From a virus: 64,000 bases of DNA. Positions 3,038 to 59,874 of the stretch are shown in pieces. The translations under genes were made by a program, and so were the position numbers. The number at the start of each line of letters is the position of its first letter. The first letter of the stretch is position 1. The notes under the pieces are model-generated. The model did no database searches, was not told the origin of the DNA, and was given only the letters and a program-made list of their open reading frames with translations. The stretch lies in the IMG/VR virus record IMGVR_UViG_3300034073_003944, positions 109,067 to 173,066 of that record; one strand, written 5' to 3'.

Positions 3038-3040
3038 TTT

Positions 3041-4737: not shown

Positions 4738-4739
4738 AT

Positions 4740-6074: not shown

Positions 6075-6079
6075 TTAAA

Positions 6080-6727: not shown

Positions 6728-6731
6728 ATTT

Positions 6732-8140: not shown

Positions 8141-8150
8141 ATTTTTAGTT

Positions 8151-10376: not shown

Positions 10377-11383
10377 AATTACAAAATAAATATGCAATAG
10401 GCACACATGTTATGTTCTATGAAATAGAAATGTATCCGGATTTTATAAACGGATTAATAAATCTATTAGAAGCTGTAGAGAACAAAGAAAATGTCTACTT
10501 AGATTTTTGTTTTAATACATCTGAATATTTTGAAAAGATTGATAAAAACAAAATAAGTTTAGATAACTTGTTCATTAAGTTTAATAGTGGTATAGAAAAA
10601 TTAAAAGCATTGGGTTATAATAACATAAAAACTGATATTAAAAACATCAACGATGAAATTTACAATATAGCAGATTATAGAAGAGACTTTAACAACAACT
10701 ATTGCAAAAAAGTTGATTTTTTAATGTGGGGAGAAACTGACAGTTTCTTTCCAAAAGAATCATTTAAAGTACTCGAATCTTTAAAAAATTATACAGATAA
10801 AAATAATTTTCATCGTTATATCTTATCGTGGTCGGAACGGAAAATGTGGGATGAATCTTGGAAAGTTACTGAACATGTTGACTATGAAAATATAATTTTT
10901 GTAGATACACCGGATCAAGTTGATAATGAAAATTATGCTAAATCTCCGTTGTCCATCGAAAAAATGAATTTAATAAATTCAAAAACTGTAGATATAGATA
11001 TCAGAGTAACAAATGAACCTAAAATTGATGGCAGTTGTTTAGTAATCAGTTCAGATTTGATTAAATGTGGAGTCAACATTCCTCACAGTCTTTTGTGTAG
11101 TGGTGATGATAGTAGTTTAGGCGTAATTGCAAAACAACTTCTGGGAGATAAATTCATACAAATCGTCGTTAAAAATATATTAAAAGTACATGCTAGAAGA
11201 CATCCCAAAAAAAGAATGTATATTTTAAATGAAAACAATCCCCGTGGTTTTTGTGGTAAAGAAAAGGGTGATTGGTGGAAAATTTTACAAGATTACTCTA
11301 AATCCAATTTAAACATTTTATTAAATAATCAAAATAAATTCTATACATTTGACGATGTATTTGATAAAATAAAAAACATATGA
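10373..11383 (+). CDS. Putative glycosyltransferase-like protein
   Basis: A 336-residue protein with a GT-A-like layout: an opening strand (YAIGTHVMFYEIEMYPDF), a central KVDFLMWGETDSFFPKESF in which ETD sits where the metal-binding acidic triplet is expected, and a late SGDDSSLG segment. A cluster of basic residues (HARRHPKKR) follows near residue 275. No exact family is recognised. Coupled by four-base overlaps to the genes on both sides. Confidence 0.45.
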   Translation: MKLQNKYAIGTHVMFYEIEMYPDFINGLINLLEAVENKENVYLDFCFNTSEYFEKIDKNKISLDNLFIKFNSGIEKLKALGYNNIKTDIKNINDEIYNIADYRRDFNNNYCKKVDFLMWGETDSFFPKESFKVLESLKNYTDKNNFHRYILSWSERKMWDESWKVTEHVDYENIIFVDTPDQVDNENYAKSPLSIEKMNLINSKTVDIDIRVTNEPKIDGSCLVISSDLIKCGVNIPHSLLCSGDDSSLGVIAKQLLGDKFIQIVVKNILKVHARRHPKKRMYILNENNPRGFCGKEKGDWWKILQDYSKSNLNILLNNQNKFYTFDDVFDKIKNI

Positions 11384-11733
11384 AAATGCCAATATCAGAA
11401 ATAGCAGATAGATATAGTATAACTCTTTTAAAAAGTGAACGAATTGAAGGAGTAAATCTAACAGATGAATTAAATGCCTATTTACAAGAATTAAATAAGT
11501 ACGAAGGTATACAAAGTTATTTAGAAAGACTGTATCAGATAAACGGAGAAATTTGGGATTTGGAATCCGACATTAGAAAAGGTAAGGAGAATATACTCGG
11601 ACTTGAAGAAGTTGGTAGACGAGCAATTATGATTCGAGGTAAGAATAAGATTCGAGTTGGAATTAAAAATGAAATGGTAGAGAAATACGAAGAAGGATTC
11701 AAAGATATAAAAATGAATCATGCTAGTGTATGA
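11380..11733 (+). CDS. Small helical protein of glycan clusters, unknown function
   Basis: A 117-residue, all-helical, charged protein beginning MKMPISEIADRYSI. Small proteins with an S-E-I-A-D-R-Y-S-I-like opening are familiar companions of surface-sugar genes in bacteria and phages, from memory of such clusters, but no function is established here. The middle (residues 25-65) could form a helical hairpin. Both ends overlap neighbouring glycan genes by four bases, so it is made in step with them. Confidence 0.5.
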   Translation: MKMPISEIADRYSITLLKSERIEGVNLTDELNAYLQELNKYEGIQSYLERLYQINGEIWDLESDIRKGKENILGLEEVGRRAIMIRGKNKIRVGIKNEMVEKYEEGFKDIKMNHASV

Positions 11734-12671
11734 ATGTATGTTTTGTAAGCCAAAACGGTCATATAGGAAAACTACCACGAAATTTTGAAAATTGTAGAGT
11801 AGAGTTTGCTTGGCAAATTGCATTAAACTCGGATCATCTATCTTTTGATTATATTTGTAAAAACAAAGTACAATCGTACGACTTAGTTATAATAATTCTA
11901 CCGAAGAAACTTGAATTGATTAATATCAATCAAATATTAGATATTTGTAAATCTATTGGTAAAAAAGTAACAGTAATGCAAGAAGGTCCGTGTTGGTATT
12001 ACCAAGATTACAAATACGAAGATCAAGTTAATTATATAAACTTTTTGAATGAGATGGACTTTTTATTAGTCCATAATAAAAGTGATGTAGCTTATTTTAA
12101 AGGTATATTTAAGAAACCTACATTTAATCTACAATCTTTAATGATTGAAGATACAGTTAAAAATATAATTAATAAAAATAGTGGATATCCAATCATCGGT
12201 GGTAACTTTTGTAGCTGGTACGGTGGAGTAGATAGTTATTTTGTTGCCCGTAATTTTAATAAAGATATATACATACCTAGTATGGGTAGGAAAATAACCA
12301 ATGAGGAAAACTTCCCAAACTTAAAACATTTACCTTATATGCAATGGACGCAATGGATCCATACACTATCTCAATTCAACATAGGTATTCATTTGATGAG
12401 AACACATGCGGCTGGTACATTTGCCCTTAATTGTGCTTATTTAGGTATACCGTGTATCGGTTATAAAGGATTGGATACTCAACAAATATTACATCCATTA
12501 TTAACGGTTGATGTAGGTAATATAGAAAAAGCAAACGAATTAGCTATACAATTAAGAGATGATGTAGATTTTTATAATAATTGTTCTTTTCATTCTAAAG
12601 AATTATATCAAATATATTATACAGAAGAAAAGTGGTTACAAAATTGGAATAAAATTTATGAACAAATTTAA
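11730..12671 (+). CDS. Putative GT-B-like glycosyltransferase
   Basis: A 313-residue protein with two Rossmann-like halves. The first half contains alternating strands and helices up to VTVMQEGPCWYY and FLLVHNKSD; the second has NIGIHLMRTHAAGTFALNC followed by AYLGIPCIGYKGLD. This last stretch copies the donor-site helix of GT-B enzymes (helix, then G-x-P-x-I/V) but lacks the glutamates of E-x7-E. It ends 14 bases inside the next gene. Donor and acceptor cannot be assigned. Confidence 0.5.
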   Translation: MNVCFVSQNGHIGKLPRNFENCRVEFAWQIALNSDHLSFDYICKNKVQSYDLVIIILPKKLELININQILDICKSIGKKVTVMQEGPCWYYQDYKYEDQVNYINFLNEMDFLLVHNKSDVAYFKGIFKKPTFNLQSLMIEDTVKNIINKNSGYPIIGGNFCSWYGGVDSYFVARNFNKDIYIPSMGRKITNEENFPNLKHLPYMQWTQWIHTLSQFNIGIHLMRTHAAGTFALNCAYLGIPCIGYKGLDTQQILHPLLTVDVGNIEKANELAIQLRDDVDFYNNCSFHSKELYQIYYTEEKWLQNWNKIYEQI

Positions 12672-13461
12672 AATTGGCATTGTTGGTTACGGATATGTTG
12701 GAAAAGCGTTTCATAATTTTTTTAAAAATCATTACGAATGTTTAATTTATGATCCAAACTTAAATACAAGCGTAACCAAAGACGAAATCAATAAATGTAA
12801 TTTAGCAGTTGTATGCGTTCCTACTCCCGAAAAACAAGATGGTAGTTGTGATACGAGTATTGTGGAAGAAACAATTAGTTGGTTAAAAACGGAATTAATT
12901 CTTTTAAAAAGTACAGTTGAAATTGGCACAACCGATAAACTAATCAACACTTTTAATAAAGAAATTGTATTTAGTCCCGAATTTGCAGGTGAGTCAAAAT
13001 ATTGGACACCGGATGGATTTACAACTGATGTTAAACAAACACCATTCTTTATATTTGGTGGTAAAAAAGAACTATGTTACAAATTAATTGAAATTTACAC
13101 ACCTATAACCGGTCCAAGCAAAACATACCGGGTAACAGATACAATCAGCGCGGAGATTACAAAATATGTAACAAATACACATCTAGCTATGAAAGTTGCA
13201 TATTGCAATGAAATATACGATTTGTGTGAAAAACTCGGAATAAATTATTATGAAATGAGAGATTTATGGTTATTAGATCCCCGTACTACTAAATCCCATA
13301 CAGCTGTATTTGCAAATGACCGTGGATTCGGAGGAAAATGTTTTCCAAAAGACACAAAAGCTTTAGTCAAATTGGGAGATAAAGTTGATATAAATCTTTC
13401 AATTTTAAAAAGTGTGTTAAAAAGTAATGAAGAAATGATCAAAAAAAATAATGTTATTTGA
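12658..13461 (+). CDS. UDP-glucose/GDP-mannose dehydrogenase-like protein lacking the C-terminal domain
   Basis: Family members oxidise a nucleotide hexose twice to a uronic acid using NAD. Here the NAD domain (KIGIVGYGYVGKAFHNFF), the VVCVPTP strand, the LKSTVEIGTT segment and the central helical domain with the catalytic cysteine (GFGGKCFPKDT, Cys near residue 228) are all present. The protein stops at residue 267, whereas usual members are about 400-450: the C-terminal UDP-binding domain is missing and the next gene starts four bases later. It may be a shortened enzyme or work with another protein; the intact active-site motif argues against simple decay. Confidence 0.75.
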   Translation: MNKFKIGIVGYGYVGKAFHNFFKNHYECLIYDPNLNTSVTKDEINKCNLAVVCVPTPEKQDGSCDTSIVEETISWLKTELILLKSTVEIGTTDKLINTFNKEIVFSPEFAGESKYWTPDGFTTDVKQTPFFIFGGKKELCYKLIEIYTPITGPSKTYRVTDTISAEITKYVTNTHLAMKVAYCNEIYDLCEKLGINYYEMRDLWLLDPRTTKSHTAVFANDRGFGGKCFPKDTKALVKLGDKVDINLSILKSVLKSNEEMIKKNNVI

Positions 13462-13464
13462 ATT

Positions 13465-14268
13465 ATGATTGAAGATAAATTTACCATATGTACTAGTTTT
13501 AATCATAGACTTTTTAAAGATCCACATCAAATTGCATATAAAAGTCTACCAAAAATTTTCAAAAATAGTAAATTTTATGTCTATCACGAAAATTCTTTTG
13601 ATTCAAAAGTAGATAACATATCAATCGATTTTTCTGACAAATCGGACAATGTTATATTATACGATTTATATGAAAAATTTCCGTGGTTAGAAAATTACTT
13701 AAAAACAAGTCATTTTTCAAAACTATCTAATCATTCTAATTATTGGATAAGAAATTCGGAATATTGGTTTAGAAAAGTAGTAAGTCTTGTAGATTTTATT
13801 ATGACTGCAAATGAAACCGAATATGGTATTTGGTTTGATTGTGATTCTACTGTTATCAAACCATTTGACCAAAGATTTTTAAACCAGTTATCAAATAATG
13901 ATTGGTGTTGTATTTTCAGAGAAGAGTGGGGAGTAACTATTGAAACCGGATTTCAAGTTTTTAAACTAAATGACGACCGTGTTAAAAATTTTTGTTTAAA
14001 GTATTTAGAATATTATACAAGCGGCGATGTTTTTAAAAATGAAAAACAATATGCCGATAATTTTGTATTGGAATCATGTTTTAAAAAATTTGACCACGAT
14101 TTAAAATTAGGCCGGTTATTAACAAATAACTTTGATATTTACGAATATATCAAACACTTTAAACGCCCTTTAGGATTAGTCCGTGAACGGAAACGATTGA
14201 TTGAAAAAAAGAACGAATTTTATTTAAAAAATAACAAACTTTTTAATAAATCAATTATCAATATTTAA
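13465..14268 (+). CDS. Putative GT-A glycosyltransferase
   Basis: A 267-residue protein with the first strand FTICTSFNHRLF and a clear D-x-D-type site, IWFDCDSTVIKPFD, followed by WCCIFREEWGVTIETGFQVF, a layout seen in GT8/GT32-like enzymes that use a metal-bound nucleotide sugar. It starts immediately after the dehydrogenase-like gene (ATG at 13465) and ends just before another GT-A gene with a similar plan; the two may be distant relatives. The C-terminal 30 residues are basic and polar. Confidence 0.6.
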   Translation: MIEDKFTICTSFNHRLFKDPHQIAYKSLPKIFKNSKFYVYHENSFDSKVDNISIDFSDKSDNVILYDLYEKFPWLENYLKTSHFSKLSNHSNYWIRNSEYWFRKVVSLVDFIMTANETEYGIWFDCDSTVIKPFDQRFLNQLSNNDWCCIFREEWGVTIETGFQVFKLNDDRVKNFCLKYLEYYTSGDVFKNEKQYADNFVLESCFKKFDHDLKLGRLLTNNFDIYEYIKHFKRPLGLVRERKRLIEKKNEFYLKNNKLFNKSIINI

Positions 14269-14273
14269 TTTTT

Positions 14274-15029
14274 ATGAATGCTAATTGTATAGTAATGATC
14301 GCAATTGAAGATAATTTTTCAAAATACAACCATAAAGACTATTTTGAAATTTCAATTGAAGCTTGGAAGAAATATTGTACTAAAAACAGTATAGATTTTA
14401 TCTTAATTGATAAAAAATTAAATTCAATTCCACATTCAAAATGGACAAAACATTTTTTATTTGATTATATTGAAGATAAATATGAAAAGATAGGAATGGT
14501 AGATTTCGATACTATACCTAAGTGGGATATGCCTAATCCGTTTGAATTGTATAATGATGAATTTTGTGGAGTTATTGATAATTGTAATTTAAATTGGTTA
14601 AACAATAGTCTAAATGCATATAAATCTACATTTCAAGAATTGGATGTCGATATAAAAATAAGCGAATACATAAATAGCGGAGTCTTATTTTTTACAAAAA
14701 ATCACAAATTTGTTTTTGAGGAAATGAAGCACTTTTATTTCAATAACAAAACGGTTTTAGATAATTGGAGTGTTTCAAACACCGGTCGAGATCAAACTAT
14801 TCTAAACTTAGTTTTAAAAAAACTTAATATTAAAAAGAAATATTTTCCATATAGTTGGAACACAGTTTCTATGATAAAAAAAGGAATGTTTTTTTATAAT
14901 GATAAGTTACAAGATTTTACTCCTTTTTTTATAAAATATGGAAATATATGGCACTTTACCGGATTTTCAATTGAGGAAAGAACTAATATTATTAGACAAC
15001 TTTGGTCTCAAACAAAACACTTATATTAA
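14274..15029 (+). CDS. Putative GT-A glycosyltransferase
   Basis: A 251-residue protein. Key stretch: KIGMVDFDTIPKWDMPNPFEL, in which DFD is the metal/nucleotide D-x-D. Then YINSGVLFFTKNH is the N-S/G-G-V/F strand typical of GT8-like and related enzymes, and TGRDQTILN gives the later D-Q motif. Its stop (15027-15029) shares a base with the next start (TAATG). The following gene has the same layout of motifs, so the pair probably arose by duplication. Confidence 0.65.
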   Translation: MNANCIVMIAIEDNFSKYNHKDYFEISIEAWKKYCTKNSIDFILIDKKLNSIPHSKWTKHFLFDYIEDKYEKIGMVDFDTIPKWDMPNPFELYNDEFCGVIDNCNLNWLNNSLNAYKSTFQELDVDIKISEYINSGVLFFTKNHKFVFEEMKHFYFNNKTVLDNWSVSNTGRDQTILNLVLKKLNIKKKYFPYSWNTVSMIKKGMFFYNDKLQDFTPFFIKYGNIWHFTGFSIEERTNIIRQLWSQTKHLY

Positions 15030-15802
15030 TGAAAAACATAATATTTATCCCAGCAGTAATTTCTGACAAAGGAGAAAAAAAGTTGAGAAACACTCCTTTA
15101 ATCAAAAAAATATTTGACTATAGTATACGAAGTTGGAAATACTTTGCTAATAAACATAATTGTACAGTAGTTGTTTTAGACGAACCAATATTAGATACTA
15201 ATGTTACTAGTATGGCGTGGCAAAGATATTATGTTTTAGATTTATTGGAACAAAGTAATATTAAATACAATCAAGTCTTAATAGTAGATGCGGATACTAT
15301 TGTACATCCAAATTGTCCTAACTTTTTTGAATTAACTGAAAACAAATATACCGGCGTACACGATGGTGTAGTATATGAATGGGTAATGAGAAGTGTAGAG
15401 TGTTACAGCAAATTATTATTTAACAACTATAACTTAAATGTTTGGAATTATATTAATGGTGGATTTCAAATAATCAACGAATCACATAAAAATCATATAA
15501 ATAAGTTCAAAGAATTTTATATAAATAACCGAGAGGAAATTTATCAAGTTGAATCCAATATAAAATTAGGTACAGATCAAACACCTATGAATTTCTTTCT
15601 ACAAATAAATAATGTTGATACTAAAATTCTACCGTATGAATTTAACATGACGGGATTACATCTATCTGAAGGTTTGAACGAAGATTTAATTTTTACAAAT
15701 TTAGGATGGGTTTATCATTTTAATGGTATACCTGATGAAACTTACGGTTCAAAAGTAGAATATTATATGAATAAAACTTTTAAAAAATTGTATGATAACT
15801 AA
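15029..15802 (+). CDS. Putative GT-A glycosyltransferase
   Basis: About 257 residues. LIVDADTIVHPNCPNFFEL holds the D-x-D site; YINGGFQIINESH and GTDQTPMNFF are the matching later motifs, in the same order and spacing as in the preceding gene (14274-15029). The ATG at 15029 overlapping the previous stop is preferred to a TTG at 15002. Overlaps the next gene by eleven bases. Substrates unknown. Confidence 0.65.
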   Translation: MKNIIFIPAVISDKGEKKLRNTPLIKKIFDYSIRSWKYFANKHNCTVVVLDEPILDTNVTSMAWQRYYVLDLLEQSNIKYNQVLIVDADTIVHPNCPNFFELTENKYTGVHDGVVYEWVMRSVECYSKLLFNNYNLNVWNYINGGFQIINESHKNHINKFKEFYINNREEIYQVESNIKLGTDQTPMNFFLQINNVDTKILPYEFNMTGLHLSEGLNEDLIFTNLGWVYHFNGIPDETYGSKVEYYMNKTFKKLYDN

Positions 15803-16754
15803 AAAGAACATCAATGGAAATCCAGAATTTGGTTGTGAGTTAACTTTAACCCTACCATATGCATATCATCTCCATCTAAAGAATGAATTGGGAACCGTTA
15901 GAACTGTTAAAGGCATGAAACCATTTTATTTTTTTACAGACCAAATTGAAGAATATTATAATGATCGATCTGTAGATAATAAAGTGGCTTTAAAAGATGT
16001 ACCGAATAATTGGATACACCACAATGCATTAGCAATAACCGGTAAAGATTATAGTGAACTAACAGACGAAGAAAAAAGAAATGTAAATGGTGTATTAGAT
16101 TATAGAGAATGGACTCCACCTCCCATAAGGGAACATTATCTTAAAAATAATGAAATAAATATAAAAGAAAAATTCGTAGTAATATGCAATAGATTTAATC
16201 TTGAACACGGACACTTTCCATATGGATACTTTGATATTCCACTTTTACAAGATATCTTTGAATACTTTAATAAAATTAATTACAAAGTAATTTATAAACG
16301 ACCTGAAAATAATGAATTTCCAGTTGATTGTAATGAAACTAGTGATATCATAAATAAATACGGCATTAAAGCAGAAGATGCAAATGGAAATGTTGTTGAT
16401 GATAAACAAATAAGCCGAATGTATGATAATGTTATCGTATTTGATGATTTACATAAAGAATATTCACATTTATCTTACAATGTTTTTCAATTACAATTAT
16501 TTTCTAAATCTTCCGGTTTTATTTCGATGGGAGGTGGAAACACCCTATTGAGTTGTTATTTTAAACAACCTGTAGTTTCTTATTTTACTACTACAAAAGA
16601 AATGAGAGATAATTACTTTGGTAAAAATTCCTATTATAGGAAACTTTCAAATTGTGATTTTTATCCAATAAAAGATCCAGAAAAAAATATACAAGAAAGA
16701 GGATATAGAGATTACACGGAATTATTAGAAACAATAAAAACAGTTTTTAAATGA
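15792..16754 (+). CDS. Unknown protein of the glycan island, possibly GT-B-like
   Basis: A 320-residue protein. From about residue 120 it resembles one half of a GT-B fold: KFVVICNRFNLEHGH, then KVIYKRPEN, VIVFDDLHKEYSHLSYNVF, SGFISMGGGNTLLSCYF and QPVVSYF. The segment SMGGGNTLL followed by helix and QPVVSYF is like the nucleotide-binding loop of glycosyltransferases that act on surface polymers. The N-terminal part is not recognised. It ends with a four-base overlap into the PseB-like gene. Confidence 0.45.
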   Translation: MITKKNINGNPEFGCELTLTLPYAYHLHLKNELGTVRTVKGMKPFYFFTDQIEEYYNDRSVDNKVALKDVPNNWIHHNALAITGKDYSELTDEEKRNVNGVLDYREWTPPPIREHYLKNNEINIKEKFVVICNRFNLEHGHFPYGYFDIPLLQDIFEYFNKINYKVIYKRPENNEFPVDCNETSDIINKYGIKAEDANGNVVDDKQISRMYDNVIVFDDLHKEYSHLSYNVFQLQLFSKSSGFISMGGGNTLLSCYFKQPVVSYFTTTKEMRDNYFGKNSYYRKLSNCDFYPIKDPEKNIQERGYRDYTELLETIKTVFK

Positions 16755-17677
16755 AAAACAAGAAAATATTTATCACAGGAGGAGCAGGCTTTTTAGGTAA
16801 AAATATCGTCAAAAGATATTATGACGATAATGAAATAACTGTATTTAGTCGTGATGAAGCAAAACACTATTATTTAAAAAAGCAATTTCCTAAAATAAAA
16901 TGTGTTGTTGGTGATATAAGAAATTATGATCTGCTTAAAAGAAGCAGTAAAAATCACGAAGTAGGAATATTTGCTGCAAGTTTAAAGCAAATTGAAGCTG
17001 TCGATCAAAATGTTGAAGAATCGGTAAAAATTATAATTAATGGTGCCATTAATAGTAGAAGAGTCTCTGAAGAAAATAATTTTGAATCTGCATGTTTCAT
17101 TTCTTCTGATAAAAGTCGATCCGCTACAACGCTTTATGGATCTATGAAATTCGTCGCAGGTGAAAGTTTTATTGTAAATTCAGACGCAAATTTCCCAAAA
17201 CTAAGCACGGCTATTTACGGAAATGTATTAAACTCGACAGGTAGTATAATTCCACTAATTTGGAACGCTTTACAAAACAAATATGCATTAAAATTGTATT
17301 CTACGGAAATGACTCGATTTATGATATCAGTCGATGAGGCTATTGATTTAATAGAAGCTTCATTAAAAGTTAATGGGTATAATGTAATACCCGAAGTAAA
17401 AAGTTTTCGTATACAAGATTTATTTGAAATATACGCCGAATTATTTGGTTTGAAATACGATGTAGATAAACCCCGAATTTCAGAAAAACTCCACGAAATC
17501 ATGATATCGAGTGAAGAAATACCGCGTGTTAAAAAAGAAGATGCATATTTTTATATGCATTACAAAGAAACATATAATCGAGTATCGTTTCCAAATAATG
17601 AATTCTCTAGTAAAGATGTATGTATAAGTAAAGAAAAACTAAACAATATTTTGAAATCCTTTAATTATTTTGAATAA
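16751..17677 (+). CDS. PseB/CapD-like nucleotide-sugar dehydratase/epimerase
   Basis: A 308-residue NAD(P)-dependent enzyme of the polysaccharide-biosynthesis branch (UDP-GlcNAc 4,6-dehydratase/5-epimerase group). IFITGGAGFLGKNIVKRY is the cofactor loop. FAASLKQIEAVDQNVEES corresponds to the A-A-L-K-Q/H-V-P strand of PseB/FlaA1. CFISSDKSRSATTLYGSMK carries the S-S-D-K and Y-x3-K catalytic residues in the family's order. In that family the product is a 6-deoxy-4-keto sugar that later becomes pseudaminic acid, QuiNAc, FucNAc or similar. The C-terminal region is shorter and divergent. The aminotransferase that often follows is not seen nearby. Confidence 0.75.
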   Translation: MKNKKIFITGGAGFLGKNIVKRYYDDNEITVFSRDEAKHYYLKKQFPKIKCVVGDIRNYDLLKRSSKNHEVGIFAASLKQIEAVDQNVEESVKIIINGAINSRRVSEENNFESACFISSDKSRSATTLYGSMKFVAGESFIVNSDANFPKLSTAIYGNVLNSTGSIIPLIWNALQNKYALKLYSTEMTRFMISVDEAIDLIEASLKVNGYNVIPEVKSFRIQDLFEIYAELFGLKYDVDKPRISEKLHEIMISSEEIPRVKKEDAYFYMHYKETYNRVSFPNNEFSSKDVCISKEKLNNILKSFNYFE

Positions 17678-17678
17678 T

Positions 17679-18902
17679 ATGTATCCAGAGTATAAATTAA
17701 GAACCAGTTGTGCAATTTGTAAAAATTTAGAACTAAAAACAATTTTTGATTTCGATGAAATATCTTTAGCGGGAAATTTTCCAAAAAAAGATGAACTAAA
17801 TCACTGTAAAAAATATCCTTTAAAATTAAAATATTGTACAAACTGTTCTTTGGTACAGACAGATAGTATAATTAATTCGGATTTTTTATTCAAAGATTAT
17901 CGTTACATGTCATCTATAGGTTTAAGTAAACATTTTTCTTCTGTAGCAATGTTGTACAAAGAAAAGTTCGGCTTAAATAATAACAGTAAAGTATTAGAAA
18001 TAGGATCCAATGATGGAGTTTTATTAAAACCATTCATGGATTTAGGTATACCGTGTATGGGATTTGATCCATCCATAAATATATCTAAAGTAGCACAAGA
18101 AAAGGGATGTAATGTAATTGTAGATTATTTTAGCAAAACGACGGCAACTAAATACCTAAAAGAAAATGATTATGACATAATTTGTTCAAATAATTGTTTT
18201 GCACATATCGATGACATTCATTCTATACTGGAAGGAGTATCATATAGTTTAAAACCAGATGGACATTTCATAATTGAAGTACATTATTTAAAAAACTTAA
18301 TCGAACAGTTACAATATGACTTCGTATATCATGAACATTTATATTATTACTCGTTATCAGCTTTAAATTATTTATTTAATTTACACGGATTATCAATTGT
18401 AGATTTTGAAGAAATCTCTATTCATTCGGGTAGTATAAGAGTATACGCTTCAAAAAATAAAAAAACAAATGAAAAGGTGGATAATCAATTAAATTTTGAA
18501 AAAAATATCGGAATGACAAATTTTGAGTATTTTGAAAATTACAGTCTCAAAGTTAAGAACCATATCATTTCTTTACAAAATATAATAAAAAATTTAAAGA
18601 ACGAAGGTTTTACTATAGCTGGGTACGGTGCATCTGGTCGAGGTAATGTGTTACTTAACATGTGTAAGTTTACTTCAAATGATATATCATTTATAATAGA
18701 TGAATCACCCGAACGTTACGATCGTTATGTAGGTGGTACTGACATTCCCATATTCAATAAAAACTATTTAAACTTAAATAAACCGAATTATATTTTAATT
18801 TTGGCTTGGAACTATTCGGATATGATAATGGAAAAATTAAAATCCGAAAATTTCAAATATATAATTCCTTTTCCAACTGTAAAAATTCACTGTATTCCGT
18901 GA
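17679..18902 (+). CDS. Sugar C-methyltransferase-like SAM enzyme
   Basis: About 407 residues in the three-part plan of NDP-sugar C-methyltransferases (TylC3/NovU-like): an N-terminal zinc site (CAICKN near residue 12 and CTNCSLVQTD near 53), a class I SAM domain (VLEIGSNDGVLLKPF, GFDPS) with the catalytic-region NNCFAHIDD and VYHEHLYYYSL, and a C-terminal Rossmann-like domain (IAGYGASGRGN, FIIDESPERYD). Family members methylate C-3 of a 4-keto sugar, fitting the keto-sugar-producing enzyme just upstream. ATG at 17679 is chosen over a TTG at 17670. Ends with a GTGA overlap into the next gene. Confidence 0.85.
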   Translation: MYPEYKLRTSCAICKNLELKTIFDFDEISLAGNFPKKDELNHCKKYPLKLKYCTNCSLVQTDSIINSDFLFKDYRYMSSIGLSKHFSSVAMLYKEKFGLNNNSKVLEIGSNDGVLLKPFMDLGIPCMGFDPSINISKVAQEKGCNVIVDYFSKTTATKYLKENDYDIICSNNCFAHIDDIHSILEGVSYSLKPDGHFIIEVHYLKNLIEQLQYDFVYHEHLYYYSLSALNYLFNLHGLSIVDFEEISIHSGSIRVYASKNKKTNEKVDNQLNFEKNIGMTNFEYFENYSLKVKNHIISLQNIIKNLKNEGFTIAGYGASGRGNVLLNMCKFTSNDISFIIDESPERYDRYVGGTDIPIFNKNYLNLNKPNYILILAWNYSDMIMEKLKSENFKYIIPFPTVKIHCIP

Positions 18903-19696
18903 AGATTTTAATACTAGGACATAAAGGAATGTTAGGACATATGGTGATGAAATATGTATCTCACCTTCAGATAAATCATGAAATAATAGAACAACGATGG
19001 CCATCAAATGAATTCACGGAATCAATTAAAAATTCTAATTCAGACTTTTTAATAAATTGTATAGCATGTATTCCACAAAAATATTCTACATGGAATTTAT
19101 ATAAAGAAACAAATATCGATTTACCGATTTTTTTAATAAAAAATTTCAACGGTAAAATAATAAATCCCACATCCGATTGTGAGTTTTCTGGAAATATAAA
19201 ATTAGGCAAGTTTTACGAAAAAAACCATATGAAAGATGTTACAGATGATTATGGAATAAGTAAATCACATACAACAAATATTTTATTAAACTATAATAAT
19301 GTAAAACAAATAAGATCTTCATTAATAGGACCGGAAATAAAAGGTAAAGTGTGTTTAATGGAATGGTTTTTTAGACAAAATAAAGATATACACGGTTATA
19401 ATAACCATTATTGGAATGGTATAACTACCTTAGAATGGACAAAACAGTGCTTAAAATTAATAGAGAACTGGGATAGATCGGATAACTTAATTCAGTTAGG
19501 TACAACTCCCATAACTAAGTATGATCTTTTATGTTTTTTAAATAAAATATTTGAATGTAAAAAAAACATAATATCTATTAGTACGGAGTTTATTAATAGA
19601 AGTTTAAAAAGTGACTATTTAATAAAGAATATTGAAGATCAATTAATTGAGTTAAAACAGTTTTATTATGAAAATAAGTTTCATTCAGCCGAGTAG
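18899..19696 (+). CDS. RmlD-like NDP-4-keto-sugar reductase
   Basis: About 266 residues with a GTG start overlapping the previous stop. KILILGHKGMLGHMVMKYV is the G-x2-G-x2-G cofactor loop, FLINCIACIPQKYS the next strand, INPTSDCEFSG the Ser/Thr-containing catalytic strand (compare STDYVF-G in RmlD) and DDYGISKSHTTN the Y-x3-K pair. RmlD-like enzymes reduce the 4-keto group made by dehydratases, so this would complete a dehydratase, C-methyltransferase, reductase series with the two genes before it. A longer ATG-start frame from 18806 overlaps the methyltransferase and is rejected. Confidence 0.75.
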   Translation: MKILILGHKGMLGHMVMKYVSHLQINHEIIEQRWPSNEFTESIKNSNSDFLINCIACIPQKYSTWNLYKETNIDLPIFLIKNFNGKIINPTSDCEFSGNIKLGKFYEKNHMKDVTDDYGISKSHTTNILLNYNNVKQIRSSLIGPEIKGKVCLMEWFFRQNKDIHGYNNHYWNGITTLEWTKQCLKLIENWDRSDNLIQLGTTPITKYDLLCFLNKIFECKKNIISISTEFINRSLKSDYLIKNIEDQLIELKQFYYENKFHSAE

Positions 19697-20870
19697 AAAT
19701 AACCTAAAATATCTTAAATGGAGTTATGAAGCTATTCGTAAAAATCTAAGCCATAAAGAACACGAAATATGTGTAGCAGACGATTTTAGTAATGATGGTA
19801 CAGAGGATTGGTGTAAAGAAACCGCAGCAAAAGATCCAAATTTTAAATATATTCGTAATAACGGTCCAACTCGGTTGGGACATACTATTTTATATGATCG
19901 TTTAATCAATGAAGTTGCAACTAATGATGTGGTAATGATCTACCACGCAGATATGTACGCATGTCCTAATTTTGATAAATATGTTGAAAAATATATTCAA
20001 CCAGGCACAATTGTTAGTTTAACTCGTATAGAACCACCTCTACATCCACCAGGACCAGAAAAAATTTGTGTTGGATTTGGTCAAGAGCCAGAAGAGTTTA
20101 AGGAACAAGAATTCTTAAAATGGTTCAAAGATACCAGTCTATCCCGTAAAGATAAAACCACAGAGGGTATTTTTGCGCCGTGGGCCCTTTATAAGAAGGA
20201 TTTCCAATCTATAGGAGGTCATGATGAACTATATGCACCTCAAAGTAAAGAAGACAGTGATATATTTAATCGTTTCTTACTTAATGGTTATAAGTTTATT
20301 CAGACATGGGAAGGTTGTGTATATCATATGACTTGTAGAGGCAGTAGATATAATCCAACTATCACCACTGTAGGTAAAGAAAGTGACGAATGGTTAGCTC
20401 AAAACAATCGTAGTGCTAGAAACTTCATTCGTAAGTGGGGTCACTTTGTTAAACACAATGATACAATGAAACCTATCGTACCTAAACGATATGATATTGG
20501 ATTCGTTGTTAAGAATTGTGATGCTTATAAATTAGCTTTGTTAGAACCGTGGTGTGATACAATCTATACCGATGTACCATATGATCAATACATCAATATT
20601 GAACAAAAAAATACTAAGTTTGATTTAGATAAGAAACTCAAACGATATGAAGATCAAAAGATTAATGATGTTATCATAGAATTTGATGCTAATAAATTAA
20701 CCAACGAAAGTTTTGAATTTTTTAACTCGTTACAACTTATACTCGAAGATAGTGGTCAAATAGGTGATTCTGAATTTGATATATTTAAATTAAAAATAAA
20801 AAATTTAAGTGATTATAGTAAAAACTTAATAAGTATTAACGATAATTGGTACAAAAATAAATTATTGTAA
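19668..20870 (+). CDS. GT2 family glycosyltransferase with extra C-terminal domain
   Basis: A 400-residue protein. The first 250 residues are a GT2 domain: ISFIQPSRNNLKYLKWSY, ICVADDFSNDGTEDW, VVMIYHADMYACPNFD (the acidic metal/nucleotide motif, here H-A-D), IGGHDELYAPQSKEDSDIF (the E-D of the catalytic base region) and a late aromatic segment. The C-terminal 130 residues form a second domain that starts RYDIGFVVKNCD and is not recognised. It overlaps the RmlD-like gene by 29 bases. Its base composition looks a little less AT-extreme than its neighbours. Confidence 0.75.
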   Translation: MKISFIQPSRNNLKYLKWSYEAIRKNLSHKEHEICVADDFSNDGTEDWCKETAAKDPNFKYIRNNGPTRLGHTILYDRLINEVATNDVVMIYHADMYACPNFDKYVEKYIQPGTIVSLTRIEPPLHPPGPEKICVGFGQEPEEFKEQEFLKWFKDTSLSRKDKTTEGIFAPWALYKKDFQSIGGHDELYAPQSKEDSDIFNRFLLNGYKFIQTWEGCVYHMTCRGSRYNPTITTVGKESDEWLAQNNRSARNFIRKWGHFVKHNDTMKPIVPKRYDIGFVVKNCDAYKLALLEPWCDTIYTDVPYDQYINIEQKNTKFDLDKKLKRYEDQKINDVIIEFDANKLTNESFEFFNSLQLILEDSGQIGDSEFDIFKLKIKNLSDYSKNLISINDNWYKNKLL

Positions 20871-23856: not shown

Positions 23857-24768
23857 TTAAATTTTATATTCTTTCTCAAATCGTTCAATGGCATAGTCTT
23901 TCGCCTTGAACTCGAACTCAAAGTCTGCATCAAAATTAACATACTCACTAGGCAATTCACGAACATAATCACCGTGTGCTCGAGGATTACTATTATTAGG
24001 ATCGTTGTCACTAAAATGAAATAGTGGTCGATACTTACCCCAAGTAGATTTAGCTAGATTTACAGCTTCTTTAGCAGTCAATTTACCACCATTACAACGA
24101 AAATGAAGATTGTCATAGGTAATTGGAATACCAGTCTTAGAATAAATTAGATCATACAACTGTTCAATTTTCCAACTATTAGGTTTGTCTTCGTTTTCGA
24201 GGGTCAATCTAGACTTCACATTATGAGAAAGGCTGTTATATACATCAATAAAACGCAAGGCGATGTCATTTATGTTACCTTTATAACAGTTCATATGAAT
24301 GTTGATAGGAGATTCATAACTTTGAGGTAATCCCATCATGTCCATCATTTTAGCATGCATGTTCAATTCTTCAACGGATTTCTTAACTACATTAGAATTT
24401 GCACTTGCAGGTACAACAAATTGGTCTGGATGTGTACTACAACGAATATTATTTTCCTTGATTATTTTAGCACACAGATCAAATTCATTCTTAATAGCTT
24501 TGAAATTGTAAGTATTTTCAAGCAATAAATTGGCTTCTGGAAGTGTTTCTAGTGGCATCATTCCACTACTGATACGGTAGTTCCACTTGTTTTGTGCACA
24601 AAATTCAAGTGTTCTACGAGTAACAAAAATATTGTTGAGTGTACGATCCGCTACGATTTTTTCAGCTTCATTGCGTTTAAGTGTAAAAAATCGCGTCTTA
24701 GTCATTGTAGACGCTTTGATACCTTGTTCTTGTAGTTTAAGGGAAATGCAGCAAAGAGATTTATTCAT
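23857..24768 (-). CDS. uvsE: UV damage endonuclease (UvdE/UvsE)
   Basis: A 303-residue TIM-barrel nuclease that nicks DNA 5' of UV photoproducts and some other lesions. The family's barrel-strand motifs can be read in order: NYRISSGMMPLE, RCSTHPDQFVVPAS, INIHMNCYKG, LTLENEDKPNSWK, GIPITYDNLHFRCN and PLFHFSDNDPN; the His, Asp and Glu residues bind the three metals. Length is normal. Its start is 42 bases from the end of the long tail-fibre gene. Together with the dNMP kinase and clamp-loader genes it belongs to the DNA-maintenance set of the phage. Confidence 0.9.
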   Translation of the reverse strand: MNKSLCCISLKLQEQGIKASTMTKTRFFTLKRNEAEKIVADRTLNNIFVTRRTLEFCAQNKWNYRISSGMMPLETLPEANLLLENTYNFKAIKNEFDLCAKIIKENNIRCSTHPDQFVVPASANSNVVKKSVEELNMHAKMMDMMGLPQSYESPINIHMNCYKGNINDIALRFIDVYNSLSHNVKSRLTLENEDKPNSWKIEQLYDLIYSKTGIPITYDNLHFRCNGGKLTAKEAVNLAKSTWGKYRPLFHFSDNDPNNSNPRAHGDYVRELPSEYVNFDADFEFEFKAKDYAIERFEKEYKI

Positions 24769-27474: not shown

Positions 27475-28659
27475 TTATCGTCCTACTTCTTTAAAATAAG
27501 CGTCTTTGGCTTCATCGTAACTCATACCTATCATTTTATTATAATAATGTATTTCAGGCTTTAAATTACCTTCACTCTTTAATTTTTTATATCTTTCTAT
27601 CGCTTTAGGTCTCCACCATTCCAAAATACCAGTTATATCCTTCTTAAAGAGGTCTTTTATCTTCAATTGATCATCGTTAATTTTATTTTGAAGGTACTCT
27701 TTAGTATTCTCATAAAAACAACTATAATACACACCACGTTCGTATCCATGCATATAATGACTTTGTTTTATTCCACATTTACTAAAGATCATGGATATCA
27801 CCCTACTCTTAGCACCTGTTACAGGACCGGATACACCTTCCTTTTGAGTCATTGCTTTCTCATATTTATCAGCATAATTTTCTTTTACCCATTCATGCCA
27901 AACTTTGTAAATGGTATCATCCGGTTTAATTGCAATCTTACCAGCACTGGTACCACATTTATGCCACCACTTCAAACTATTATACATACTATAACTACCA
28001 TACAAACTAGTTGTAGTCATACCTACAAGAGTTTGATTGTATAGTTCTTTCCATTTATCTTGTACACCTTTACTTACAACCATAGCAGCCGCAAGTTTAC
28101 CACCCAAAAAATTATAACCAAATGGTTGTGTACTAATAATACTACTACCAATAGCACTGTGAGCTAATTTCTTATCCTTTATCTTATTGTTCTTGTTCCA
28201 ACCAATATAATTGTCACGGTCGGTAATTGTAATAACATCACTACTTACAGCCAATACACCGATATATGGTGTTTCGGGTTTATTTCTATCTACAATAAGA
28301 AACTTAAGAAATCTACCAGGTGTTTGATTAAACTCAAATGTGCTTACAAATACCCTAAGCAATGTCCAATCTTCATTTTGTTGTTTGGTTTCTACATATA
28401 CCAACTCAGGTTGACAATTCTCAATTTCTTTAATCGTAGATACCTCATCATTTATATCCGTAGGATGCCAGATCTTAGCTTTAATAGTATTTAATTTACT
28501 AGCGACATCTCTATAATTTTGAGTCTCTAACCACTTCTTATAGAATGTCTGTTCTTCCACAGACATCGCTTTTAAATAATCTAAATTTGTTATCAAACTT
28601 TTCTTATTAGAATCAAAATCAAATGCTTCTACACCAAAAAATTCTTGTAATGCGTCCAT
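27475..28659 (-). CDS. DUF4338 (DruA-like) domain protein
   Basis: A 394-residue protein whose centre resembles the DUF4338 domain, best known from DruA of the Druantia defence system: TPGRFLKFLIVDR, IGVLAVSSDVITITDRD followed by NYIGW, QPFGYNFLGGKLAAAM, and LVGMTTTSLYGSYSMYN followed by a K-C/L-G-T-x-G segment. These are set in the same order as I remember for the family. The N-terminal 100 residues and the C-terminal 130 are not recognised. No other Druantia gene is nearby, so a stand-alone phage function is more likely (nucleic-acid modification, counter-defence or superinfection exclusion are all open). Stated from pattern memory; a profile search is needed. Confidence 0.5.
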   Translation of the reverse strand: MDALQEFFGVEAFDFDSNKKSLITNLDYLKAMSVEEQTFYKKWLETQNYRDVASKLNTIKAKIWHPTDINDEVSTIKEIENCQPELVYVETKQQNEDWTLLRVFVSTFEFNQTPGRFLKFLIVDRNKPETPYIGVLAVSSDVITITDRDNYIGWNKNNKIKDKKLAHSAIGSSIISTQPFGYNFLGGKLAAAMVVSKGVQDKWKELYNQTLVGMTTTSLYGSYSMYNSLKWWHKCGTSAGKIAIKPDDTIYKVWHEWVKENYADKYEKAMTQKEGVSGPVTGAKSRVISMIFSKCGIKQSHYMHGYERGVYYSCFYENTKEYLQNKINDDQLKIKDLFKKDITGILEWWRPKAIERYKKLKSEGNLKPEIHYYNKMIGMSYDEAKDAYFKEVGR

Positions 28660-41428: not shown

Positions 41429-42334
41429 TCACAAAAGATAATCTTGTAAACTTATTTTAGTAAACAATTTTTTAACCTCGTCGTACCGCCAAAATTCACA
41501 TTTTAAAAAATTAATAATATTAATCATTCGGTTAATATCTTTTTTTCTCAATGATCCATTCGGATAATAATGTCGGGGTTCATCATATTCAACTACAATA
41601 TTTTTTTCTACATCATACGCATCTAGCCAATAACCCAATTCTTTTATATAAAATTCACCGCCATTTAAAGCATGTCTCAGTTTCCATCCATATTCTTTAT
41701 TAAGTTGTTCAAAATATTCACATGCTTTTAAATTGAAATTTGGACAAATTTTACCATGTTTCATTTCCAACTCTTGAAGTTTTTTAAGTCTCATTTTAGT
41801 TTTGACTTCACTTCTTTTAGCCGGATTTTTGTCGCCTGTAAATTTTCCCTTTAAAGATTCACTAATTTTTATTTTTGATTCAACATTATGATTTTTTCCA
41901 TACATCGGATGATTTGGACCTCGCATACCAACCTTACCTAAGTGTTTATTTCTTATTTTTTCTTTTGTTTCATCTGTATGTTTTTTGCCGTACATAGGAT
42001 GATTTTTTCCCTTTATTTTTTTACTTATATTATTTCTTTGTTCCGGCGATAAAATTCTTCCTTTGTTTTTTGAAGAAATTTTATTTTTACTGACACATGT
42101 ATGATTTTTTCCATGCATGGGGTTGTTTTGACCACTATAATTTCTACACATCATACATTTAGATTTTTTATTAATTTGACGGATCATATCAAGTTTAAGA
42201 CCATATAATTGAATAGATTCACACCCATCACATTTTTTAAAGTATTTTCTAGTATTATTAATTAAAATATACGGATAATCTTTTGATCTATCATAAAAAC
42301 ACTCATATACACAATCATTTATAGTAATATTCAT
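41429..42334 (-). CDS. Free-standing homing endonuclease with NUMOD3 repeats and PD-(D/E)XK/VSR-like C-terminus
   Basis: A 301-residue selfish endonuclease. The N-terminus has a C-x2-C...C-x2-C zinc-like site (KKCDGC, KCMMCRNY). It is followed by at least four NUMOD3-type DNA-binding units, each with N-P/H-M-Y/H-G-K and a short helix (NNPMHGKNHT, NHPMYGKKHT, NHPMYGKNHN). The C-terminal domain has LGYWLDAYDVEKNIVVEYDE, the D...(D/E)-x-x-E-type core of EDxHD/VSR-like nucleases, then a conserved W-R-Y-like end. It is inserted between the gp32-like gene and a small unknown gene; genes next to essential replication loci are typical targets. Confidence 0.8.
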   Translation of the reverse strand: MNITINDCVYECFYDRSKDYPYILINNTRKYFKKCDGCESIQLYGLKLDMIRQINKKSKCMMCRNYSGQNNPMHGKNHTCVSKNKISSKNKGRILSPEQRNNISKKIKGKNHPMYGKKHTDETKEKIRNKHLGKVGMRGPNHPMYGKNHNVESKIKISESLKGKFTGDKNPAKRSEVKTKMRLKKLQELEMKHGKICPNFNLKACEYFEQLNKEYGWKLRHALNGGEFYIKELGYWLDAYDVEKNIVVEYDEPRHYYPNGSLRKKDINRMINIINFLKCEFWRYDEVKKLFTKISLQDYLL

Positions 42335-55722: not shown

Positions 55723-55942
55723 TCAAAATGGTTTATCTATTTTCCCCGGCTTTTTAGAAGGTTGTTTATAGGATTCGTTTTCTCTGTTTTTTATATCTAC
55801 TAATTGGTGATAGTAGAAATTACGCAAGAATACAGGCAATTTATAAGCAATATCTACATTTATAGCTCCCTGTGAAAAGTAACACAATTCAAATATTTGT
55901 TTGTGTACAATTACTTTATACTCCGGCGTCAGGCCAAAAAAA
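55723..55942 (-). CDS. gp51-like extension frame reached from gp26 by +1 frameshift
   Basis: After the gp26 stop (55916) an open frame continues for about 66 codons to a TGA at 55723-55725 with no ATG or GTG in it and only late TTG codons. Upstream it overlaps the end of gp26 and stays open back to the seven-T run at 55936-55942; a +1 slip there (codons TTT TTT, skip T, GGC) joins the frames and adds 70 residues in place of the normal last 6. The protein (VIVHKQIFELCYF, then YKLPVFLRNFYYHQLVDI) has the style of the small protein that follows gp26 in T4-like phages (gp51). Alternative: one extra T from sequencing error, in which case gp26 is naturally longer. Confidence 0.55.
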
Positions 55943-56752
55943 CTGTACCGTCATCGGTACATCCATCCTTTCTTCGTTCTGACACTGTTCACATGCAAAA
56001 TTAAATCCTAAATCAAGTTCCGGAGCAATAGACTTTACATAACCTCTAAGCGCCATGCTGTCTCTTGATAGTAATTCATTATCTACGAATTTAGCTATAG
56101 AAGCTGGATCACGCTTATCATCAATACTTGTAATCATTCTCTTTAAACGAGTAGTTACTTCAGCGCTAGCGTTCTTTTTGACTTTGGATATAGCTTTTGA
56201 ATCACGATCTATATTTTCTTCATCACCCGATGTTAATAACTTGAAAGTGATTTTTCTCTTTGAAGTTGGAAATATAAACTCAAATTCATTGACTCCTCTC
56301 TCCATGTTTGAAAAGTCAACATCTTTTTCTTGAACTTCACCTAGATTGATAGTAACTTTGTTTTCAGTGTTACATCTCTTACATTCAATCTTAACGGGCC
56401 CGTAATTATCGCCATATGCCAATCGTCTAGCAGCAATAAACAAAGCGTTCTTGTCAACCATCAACAAATCCGCCACATTTACACCTGGAGTTACAATCAA
56501 ACTTTCAAGAAGTTTATCAAGAACAATACCCTTCTTTATGTAATTTTCATTCGTCAAAATATCTTCTTCTTTTGCAGTCATCATCTTCATATCAATACTG
56601 CCCTTGCTCAAGGGAGATTTTTCATCATAAAAATAACCTTTAGAAGGCAGGTTGATATTTTCAGCAGGATATGTTGTTGAATTTACAGAACTTTTTGTAG
56701 AAGTAGATTCGTGTTCTTGTTTTAATTTTTGAATAAAAATTTCGTCGCTCAT
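55916..56752 (-). CDS. T4 gp26-like baseplate/tail-assembly protein
   Basis: A 278-residue member of the T4 baseplate gp26 group (Pfam T4_baseplate). Typical features: the opening INLPSKGYFYDEKSPLSKG, the helical NYIKKGIVLDKLLESLIV and VDKNALFIAARRLAYGDNYG, then two C-x2-C zinc-ribbon-like sites (CKRCNTENKV and CEQCQNEERMD) and the usual end FFWP. gp26 helps assemble the baseplate hub. The seven-T run inside the last codons is a possible frameshift site leading into the next frame. It lies 228 bases upstream of the tape measure, as tail chaperones do in other phages. Confidence 0.8.
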   Translation of the reverse strand: MSDEIFIQKLKQEHESTSTKSSVNSTTYPAENINLPSKGYFYDEKSPLSKGSIDMKMMTAKEEDILTNENYIKKGIVLDKLLESLIVTPGVNVADLLMVDKNALFIAARRLAYGDNYGPVKIECKRCNTENKVTINLGEVQEKDVDFSNMERGVNEFEFIFPTSKRKITFKLLTSGDEENIDRDSKAISKVKKNASAEVTTRLKRMITSIDDKRDPASIAKFVDNELLSRDSMALRGYVKSIAPELDLGFNFACEQCQNEERMDVPMTVQFFWPDAGV

Positions 56753-57762: not shown

Positions 57763-58254
57763 TTAGTATTGGAGAATTGCGTAGTCGTATGCTACACCAA
57801 CAGTGATCATTTGAGCAGCACCGTCATCGCTCCAATCCATATCGGTGAAATCGGCACTGGTAATGAAAGCACCCTTCAATTGCCATTCTTCTACTTTATC
57901 GCCTACAGGTCCGAGAACATTAATGGTTATATCCTTCTTATAGAAGTCTTGATAACCATCACGACCTGTTACAGATTCGTGGTGCAAACGAACCCATTCC
58001 ATTACTGCTTGAGCGCCAGAAGGAACAATTGGATCATAAAGTTCCATTGATACTTCATCCCAAACGCTCTTACCCTTATAGTAAGTCTTGACATTGATGT
58101 GATCAAGTTCTTTCTTAGCTTGAGTAAGTTTAGGGCGGTTAACCTTCTTTACGATAAATGACGGAATACCGTCAACATAAAGAATAAATCGGTTTTTAAC
58201 CTTTGGTTCAAACGCCGTATAAAATATTTCACTCGGATTTAGTAATTCTGCCAT
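57763..58254 (-). CDS. Tail tube protein, T4 gp19-like
   Basis: A 163-residue protein that stacks as hexamers to form the tube. KNRFILYVDGIPSFIVKKVN, the KTYYKGKSVWDEVSMELYDP segment, VMEWVRLHHESVTGRDGYQ, DITINVLGPVGDKVEEWQL and TDMDWSDDGAAQMITVGVAY match gp19 throughout and the length is exact for the family. The gene has a GAAAGG ribosome-binding site, a TATTTATA box 26 bases before the start and a strong terminator, as expected for a very abundant virion protein. Confidence 0.9.
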   Translation of the reverse strand: MAELLNPSEIFYTAFEPKVKNRFILYVDGIPSFIVKKVNRPKLTQAKKELDHINVKTYYKGKSVWDEVSMELYDPIVPSGAQAVMEWVRLHHESVTGRDGYQDFYKKDITINVLGPVGDKVEEWQLKGAFITSADFTDMDWSDDGAAQMITVGVAYDYAILQY

Positions 58255-58362: not shown

Positions 58363-59874
58363 ATGAGTAGACCAAAAAATAATCCAGACTTTGTTAATAA
58401 AACATGTAAACATTGTAATGGTGTATATAGCGTTTCATTTTATAAAAGAAAAAAATCCACTTATTGTAGTAAGAAGTGTGCCAATTCCGATATAGATGTT
58501 TTAAATAAAATGAGAAGTTCCCAGTCAGAAACATATAAAGAAAAATATGGTGGTTTGCATCCGATGCAGACAAGAGAAACACAAAGTAATTTTCAAAAAG
58601 CAATTCTTGCTAAATATGGCGTAACTAGTTATAGCAAGCTTAAAGAGTATAATGTTAAAGTAAGAAAGACTAAGCTGGATCGTTATGGCGATGAAAACTA
58701 TACAAACATTCAAAAAATAAAATCTACTTGTCTAGAAAAGTACGGCGTTGATAATGTATTAAAGTCCGATAAAATCCGTGACGAAATAAAAAATAAATCA
58801 AAACAAATAAGATATGAATTTTTAAAAAATTATTGTACCGTTAGAAACATAACGCCATTATTTAGTGACAGTGAATATATCGGATATTCATTTAGAAACA
58901 AATATAAGTTTTTGTGTAATAAATGTAATAAGCAATTTGAAACGGATGTTTATAGGATCAATCATATTTTTTGTAATTACTGTAATCCTTTAGATAAAGA
59001 TACAATTGAAAATGAAATATATTTGTTTGTAAAATCAATTGTTGCAAATGATATTGTTATAAAAAGAAAAGATAGAACGGTTTTAAATGGTAAAGAGTTG
59101 GATATTTATATACCTTCAAAAAATATAGCAATTGAATTTAACGGACTTTATTGGCACAGTGAGAATGGTAATAATATTAAAAAAACATATCATTTAAATA
59201 AAAGTCGTAGTTGTATTTCAAAAAGCATACGGTTGATTCATATTTTTGAAAACGAATGGGTTTATAAAAAAGAAATTGTTAAATCTATACTATGTAACAT
59301 TTTGCAAGTTAATACAAATAAAATTTATGCGAGAAATTGTGTTGTTAAGAATGTAAGCCAAAATGAAAAAAATATTTTTTTAGAACATAACCATATTCAA
59401 GGCAAAGACAAATCTTCTATTCAATATGGTTTGTTTAATAACGGGGAACTCGTATCAGTAATGACCTTTGTTAAATCTAGATTTGATAAAAAAATACAGT
59501 ATGAAATGTATAGATATTGTAATAAATTAAACACAAACATTATAGGAGGTGCTTCTAAATTATTTAAACAATTTTTGGAAGACTATTCTCCTGATACAAT
59601 AGTGTCTTACAGTGATAGAAGATATTTTAATGGTACAATTTACCAAACCCTCGGCTTTAATTTTATTGAAAATACACCACCAAATTATTGGTACATAAGT
59701 CCTGATTACAAATCGTTACATAATAGAATGACTTTTCAAAAGCATAAGCTTATAAAAGCATTGGAAAAATATGATCCAACTTTAACCGAGTGGGAAAATA
59801 TGTTACAGAACGGTTTTGATAGAATTTGGGATTGCGGCAATGGTAAATGGATTTGGAACTTAATCTATACTTAA
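58363..59874 (+). CDS. Free-standing homing endonuclease of the EDxHD/VSR-like type
   Basis: A 503-residue endonuclease on the opposite strand to the surrounding tail genes, as expected for an inserted selfish gene. Residues 13-40 hold a zinc site (CKHCNGVYSVSFYKRKK, CSKKCAN). There follow several repeats with K-Y/Y-G-x-x-N (EKYGVDNVLKS, DRYGDENYTNIQK, AKYGVTSYSKL) used for DNA contact. A second zinc site (CNKCNKQF, CNYCN) comes next. Then LDIYIPSKNIAIEFNGLYWH, a nuclease core with D...E-x-N-G-x-x-W-H, and a C-terminal half with an acetyltransferase-like HIQGKDKSSIQYGLF pattern often fused to these nucleases. It ends 15 bases inside the convergent gene. Confidence 0.75.
   Translation: MSRPKNNPDFVNKTCKHCNGVYSVSFYKRKKSTYCSKKCANSDIDVLNKMRSSQSETYKEKYGGLHPMQTRETQSNFQKAILAKYGVTSYSKLKEYNVKVRKTKLDRYGDENYTNIQKIKSTCLEKYGVDNVLKSDKIRDEIKNKSKQIRYEFLKNYCTVRNITPLFSDSEYIGYSFRNKYKFLCNKCNKQFETDVYRINHIFCNYCNPLDKDTIENEIYLFVKSIVANDIVIKRKDRTVLNGKELDIYIPSKNIAIEFNGLYWHSENGNNIKKTYHLNKSRSCISKSIRLIHIFENEWVYKKEIVKSILCNILQVNTNKIYARNCVVKNVSQNEKNIFLEHNHIQGKDKSSIQYGLFNNGELVSVMTFVKSRFDKKIQYEMYRYCNKLNTNIIGGASKLFKQFLEDYSPDTIVSYSDRRYFNGTIYQTLGFNFIENTPPNYWYISPDYKSLHNRMTFQKHKLIKALEKYDPTLTEWENMLQNGFDRIWDCGNGKWIWNLIYT

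Follow-up and report, generated by a model that had tools for sequence, protein, structure and literature searches.

Sequence evidence for +1 frameshifting in the tail assembly chaperone genes of a large clade of T4-related phages

Introduction

It is already known that tailed phages make tail assembly chaperones by frameshifting, and that gp26 and gp51 of T4-like phages are such chaperones. In phage lambda, the genes ahead of the tape measure gene yield a short chaperone and a frameshift-extended one, in a ratio set by slippage (PMC5009743). For T4-like phages, earlier work assigned gp26 (TAC-N) and gp51 (TAC-NC), members of PF12322, to the tail assembly chaperones and placed frameshifting in other groups of these phages (Vladimirov, Gautam and Davidson 2022, Virology 566:9-15; cited by PMC10885494 and PMC12846349). 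Judging from these citing papers, the remark in a first-pass annotation of the DNA studied here, that the T4-type pair was not, to its knowledge, described as a chaperone pair made by programmed frameshift, was out of date. The frameshift signals of T4-like phages are described as -1 poly-T in a 2025 paper (PMC12846349). Shifts in the +1 direction are represented by the release factor 2 gene prfB, which naturally slips at CUU U or, less often, at UUU U, and by the tail chaperone frameshift of the myovirus HSTV-2 of Halorubrum, which is described as very likely +1 (both PMC5009743).

Here we analyse a locus in the last 64 kb (hereafter the window) of a 173,066-bp IMG/VR virus record. Taking the two parts of the reading jointly, we consider it highly probable that this locus encodes the tail assembly chaperones of a T4-related contractile-tailed phage, the gp26-like protein being TAC-N and a frameshift product TAC-NC, and that TAC-NC is made by +1 ribosomal frameshifting at the site YUU UGG C. 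The argument is built on sequence comparison, gene order and analogy with lambda.

Gene layout and proposed mechanism

Table 1. Features of the chaperone locus and neighbouring tail genes (window coordinates)
Feature	Coordinates	Strand	Support
TAC-N (gp26-like, zero-frame product, 278 aa)	55916..56752	-	PF12322, phrog_150
Slip site TTT TTT T|GGC (zero frame TTT TTT TGG C)	55933..55942	-	same or variant site in 235/240 distinct loci
TAC-C, C-terminal domain in the +1 frame (70 codons and a stop following the slip)	55723..55935	-	conserved family
Tape measure protein, 1182 aa	52140..55688	-	phrog_58 E=7.8e-19; further tape measure PHROGs
Tail tube protein, upstream, same tail module	57763..58254	-	phrog_4542 E=1.1e-27; PF06841 E=6.7e-6

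On the minus strand, the gp26-like gene ends in ATG ACG GTA CAG TTT TTT TGG CCT GAC GCC GGA GTA TAA, with its run of seven T at 55942-55936. A second frame overlaps this 3′ end and stays open for 75 codons, starting at 55950 and closing with a stop at 55723; it is the open frame lacking ATG and GTG that the first-pass annotation had noticed before the tape measure gene, and we find it as described. The accompanying claim that this frame has no start needs qualification: neither ATG nor GTG occurs before or near the junction in the window, but a TTG at 55887, 16 codons past the junction, is the sole start candidate, though relatives place it inside conserved coding sequence. Read in +1, the second frame begins with GGC (55935-55933), and the TAC-NC fusion would comprise 272 + 70 = 342 aa. 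Only 34 nt separate the TAC-C stop from the tape measure ATG (55688), so that the pair lies beside the tape measure gene in the T4-type position. Among the 18,779 codons of the window genes there is a single in-frame TTT TTT TGG; this rarity and the recurrence of the arrangement in 235 of 240 distinct loci go beyond chance. Because the source record contains one PF12322 gene and one copy of TAC-C, no fused copy replaces the frameshift.

We propose that most ribosomes would stay in the gp26-like frame until it terminates, yielding TAC-N of 278 aa. When tRNA-Phe occupies the P site, paired to UUU, and the A site presents UGG (Trp), a fraction would slip by +1, tRNA-Phe would re-pair with the overlapping UUU, and GGC would be read next, yielding TAC-NC of 342 aa. 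By analogy with lambda, TAC-N would coat the tape measure protein as gpG does, and the C-terminal helical domain of TAC-NC would recruit tail tube subunits as gpGT does. We infer the occurrence of the shift, its efficiency and the action of UGG as a slow codon; the chaperone function is argued from homology, synteny and the lambda analogy.

Several other genes of the window deserve mention. Inside the tail module lie a NUMOD3 homing-endonuclease-like gene (41429-42334, minus strand, E=2e-21) and a DUF7487 gene on the opposite strand (58363-59874, plus strand, E=1e-12). Elsewhere, 27475-28659 (minus strand) matches PF14236 (E=1e-22), the family of the Druantia defence component DruA, and 23857-24768 (minus strand) encodes a homologue of the UV-endonuclease UvdE (PF03851, E=1.9e-40). 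A long run of genes at 2492-20870 (plus strand) resembles, by eye, sugar-nucleotide, glycosyltransferase and methyltransferase genes.

Identity of the two chaperone domains

The assignment of TAC-N is the firmer of the two by profile comparison. It matches PF12322 with E=3.2e-14 and 53.6 bits (cut-off 24.5), phrog_150 (baseplate hub) with E=5.7e-16, and a profile of T4 gp51 and cyanophage gp26 with E=4.5e-8, the last match ending at the junction residues. Its AlphaFold model has a pLDDT of 89.8, and when this model is compared with the PDB (350,542 chains), the HK97 tail assembly chaperone 2OB9 ranks first and third, at E=0.85, which is non-significant alone. The proposal of the first-pass annotation that gp26/gp51 belong with the frameshifted tail chaperones agrees with the published assignment, and the PF12322 match, a position next to the tape measure gene, and the predicted short and long products fit it.

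TAC-C is, by its pattern of substitution, protein-coding. Over 82 disjoint pairs of sequences, substitutions by codon position stand at 1137:743:2382, and the third position is the most substituted in 82/82. These counts, taken on close disjoint pairs, were used in place of NG86 dN/dS over all pairs, whose median of 0.69 is misleading and is attributed to divergent, badly aligned tails. The conserved residues are G-L...EY, GG, Y, MP and R (alignments A2 and A8), and the AlphaFold model consists of three helices with a mean pLDDT of 84.9; a structure search with this model returned no significant match.

The relationship of TAC-C to gp51 is less certain. Comparison with the T4 gp51 C-terminus and cyanophage gp51 gives a weak match in hhalign when deeper alignments are used (E=5.5e-5, probability 66%), as against a probability of 3% with shallow alignments. 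The two PHROGs that most TAC-C members match, though weakly, are phrog_634 (gp51) and phrog_32580 (tail assembly chaperone), and NCBIfam contains no match to either TAC-N or TAC-C. Separately, 12 of the 69 TAC-C members in alignment A8 match Pfam DUF6760 (best E=1.6e-5); DUF6760 may represent the TAC-C of other contractile systems.

Survey of homologous loci

A tblastn search located gp26 homologues in Microcystis phage Mel-JY01, the Flavobacterium phages immuto, a Streptococcus phage record and two huge uncultured phages, and a separate search placed the second ORF of Mel-JY01 and immuto at the corresponding position. With gp26 as the query, scans of IMG/VR and bacterial genome assemblies supplied about 290 further loci, and 240 distinct loci were evaluable after the removal of duplicates. 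Since loci were picked on gp26 and not on the second ORF, recovery of the latter is not built into the survey. The second frame lies at +1 in 235 of the 240, at -1 in three, and is provided with its own ATG in two. In all 235 the +1 junction falls at the same point, which in the window is the seven-T run in the last gp26 codons that the first-pass annotation had picked out from one sequence.

The arrangement is poorly served by current annotation. In immuto, TAC-C is annotated as a truncated 36-aa hypothetical ORF (MW353176.1, 150607-150717), and in Mel-JY01 as a TTG-started hypothetical protein (PP395634.1, 35980-36216), the locus there being recorded as two hypothetical proteins. The analysis settles to which class this gene pair belongs, for which even cultured phages carry wrong annotations.

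The few loci that depart from the +1 arrangement serve as natural controls. The -1 second frame is confined, among the surveyed loci, to the LR756511 clade (L006, L257-L259), whose site, T TTT TTC, is a heptamer of the canonical -1 kind. In L271 (3100-3600) and L275 (3100-3500), an ATG of its own makes TAC-C a separate gene, with an N-terminus about 20 residues longer, and the slip site has degenerated to TTC TTG TAT CCT and TTC CTT TGG CCA, respectively. Relatives with an own-ATG second ORF, which had been expected to speak against a frameshift, therefore exist, but only as two divergent loci that lack the slip site, and their loss of the site where a start is present supports the frameshift model.

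Variation and constraint at the slip site

At the 235 loci the junction codons are TTT TTT TGG CCT (168), TTT CTT TGG CCT (34), TTC TTT TGG CCT (13), TTT TTT TAC CCT (9), TTT CTA TGG CCT (4) and CTT TTT TGG CCT (3), with four singletons. The A-site codon is the sense codon UGG or UAC in nearly all. Among 101 gp26 columns with conserved amino acids, the slip-site codons TTT, TTT and CCT rank as the top three for synonymous conservation. Their codon identities are 100% and 99% for the two TTT and 99.5% for CCT, compared with 63-86% TTT at Phe columns elsewhere. On a FastTree phylogeny, changes between TTT and TTC number four at slip codon 1 and one at slip codon 2, against 17-30 at each of seven other Phe columns on the same tree.

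Conservation of CCT can be put down to dual coding, because GGC CTN must give Gly-Leu in the +1 frame. The wobble constraint on TTT does not arise in this way, because both products read those codons in the zero frame; slippage would be its natural reason. Comparison across the loci shows both frames and the slip site to be under selection, and the junction to be fixed. With at least 235 distinct natural sites, the family represents a large data set on the variation accepted at bacterial +1 frameshift sites.

Alternative explanations

Since slips of +1 and of -2 lead into the same frame, relatives are needed to settle the direction; the window alone could not discriminate. A -2 shift, as in phage Mu, would give a fusion with one extra Phe, and the re-pairing that it needs is possible at TTT TTT TGG and TTT CTT TGG, amounting to 216 of the 235 loci. 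It is impossible at TTC TTT TGG, TTT CTA TGG, TTT CTA TTC and TTC TTT CGT, which make up 19 distinct loci spread over several lineages, whereas +1 re-pairing of the P-site tRNA is possible at 235 of 235. On the tree, the incompatible sites arose at least three times for TTC TTT and at least four times for CTA. We regard the -2 shift as unlikely, and the +1 slip proposed in the first-pass annotation has stood up.

It is less likely again that TAC-C is a separate gene, started at the TTG at 55887 or by coupled reinitiation, with no fusion at all. The TTG in the window, the annotated TTG start in Mel-JY01, the truncated ORF in immuto and the two own-ATG loci are all consistent with a separate gene, as is the presence of some +1-frame ATG, GTG or TTG upstream of the junction in 116/212 loci, so that separate initiation may occur in some of the phages. 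Yet conservation starts at the GL..EY motif by the slip site, upstream of the TTG, and in many loci start codons are wholly absent (48/212 lack ATG, GTG and TTG all the way from the nearest stop upstream to a point 20 codons beyond the junction). A separate gene would also leave the TTT TTT codon constraint unexplained.

Transcriptional slippage, in which RNA polymerase would add or drop a U on the T run to give the fusion, is known in bacteria on long A or T runs, and the window offers seven T. Such slippage usually needs nine or more T, for which seven is short. Further, 35 loci with TTT CTT TGG or TTT CTT TAC, 13 with TTC TTT TGG and five with CTA have a longest T run of three or four, the TTT CTT TGG variants having none above three, and we consider the idea highly improbable. 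Given that -2 re-pairing fails in 19 loci and that transcriptional slippage is implausible for these variants, the +1 shift is the only single mechanism that would serve the whole family.

The chance that a sequencing error added one T to a run of six, gp26 then being simply a longer single gene, is close to negligible: a seven-base run is a usual place for an indel error and one base fewer would fuse the frames, but TTT TTT recurs in 178/235 distinct loci from many assemblies, 57/235 carry CTT, CTA or TTC variants that lack such a run and are still +1, and the cultured phages Mel-JY01 and immuto share the arrangement. The alignment of relatives that the first-pass annotation had recommended accordingly finds a conserved slippery run with both frames open, in independent assemblies and in cultured-phage genomes, and the sequencing error that it had offered as the alternative can be set aside.

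Initiation signals, stimulators and tRNAs

Shine-Dalgarno signals do not rise above chance in this phage. Among the 52 window genes of at least 150 aa, a 5-mer precedes 0/52 and a 4-mer 6/52, against 8.8% of random 17-mers. A missing ribosome-binding site consequently proves nothing here, and the lack of signal suggests a host such as Bacteroidota.

No candidate stimulator emerged around the slip site. The gp26 alignment shows no synonymous conservation upstream of it, no internal Shine-Dalgarno was found, and downstream folding is unremarkable (mean z -0.5). A hairpin in the window, GTACCG-ATGA-CGGTAC (55960-55945, z -2.3), was considered and rejected, the structure not being kept in relatives (mean z -0.9). 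The phage tRNAs in the stretches read are Leu TAA and CAA, Ile, Met, Glu and Lys, with no Phe or Trp among them, so that phage tRNAs do not explain the slippage. The +1 sites occur in phages whose genome lacks Shine-Dalgarno signals, and the stimulator that is classical for prfB is missing from them.

Comparison with known systems

The +1 direction and the YUU UGG C slip site in a large aquatic clade appear to be new, as we found no description of them in the literature consulted. The closest described system is the T4-type gp26/gp51 pair, with which the locus shares a homologous TAC-N, a probably homologous TAC-C, the same place in the tail module, and short and extended products. Unlike the window, with its +1 frameshift at YUU UGG C, T4 encodes gp26 and gp51 as two separate genes on opposite strands. 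Both match PF12322, and gp51, paralogous to gp26, is extended at its C-terminus; it is probably the same TAC-NC product made from a fused gene, with TAC-C as the probable homologue of its extension. The cyanophages P-SSM2 and S-PM2, together with phiM12 and Cr30, also differ from the window clade, in having a -1 second frame, with U UUU UUC or U UUU UUU at the overlap.

We tentatively suggest a wider evolutionary picture, as possible rather than probable. Homologous PF12322 chaperones would take four forms at one junction (a -1 shift, a +1 shift, a second gene with its own start, and a fused gene), and the direction of frameshifting would have switched in evolution. The +1 form would be driven by a sense codon at YUU UGG C and need neither a Shine-Dalgarno nor a structural stimulator; the host's supply of Trp-tRNA may set its efficiency. 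The -1, +1, own-ATG and fused (T4 gp51) forms would then represent several solutions to one need, namely a little of the extended chaperone and more of the short one.

Lambda gpG/gpGT resembles the locus in having a short and a frameshift-extended chaperone before the tape measure gene, the likeness drawn here being one of arrangement, and differs in shifting by -1. The same contrast applies to canonical -1 frameshifting at XXXYYYZ, since the window and 235/240 loci have their second frame at +1. In direction the nearest parallel among tail chaperones is HSTV-2, likewise a myovirus, with a shift that is very likely +1, though an archaeal one. At the level of the slip site it is prfB, where CUU or UUU in the P site slips onto UUU at CUU UGA C, a sequence from which CUU UGG C differs by one base. 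The prfB site has the stop codon UGA in the A site and an internal Shine-Dalgarno as its stimulator; the family described here has a sense Trp codon, no such stimulator was found at the window site, and the system is not autoregulatory.
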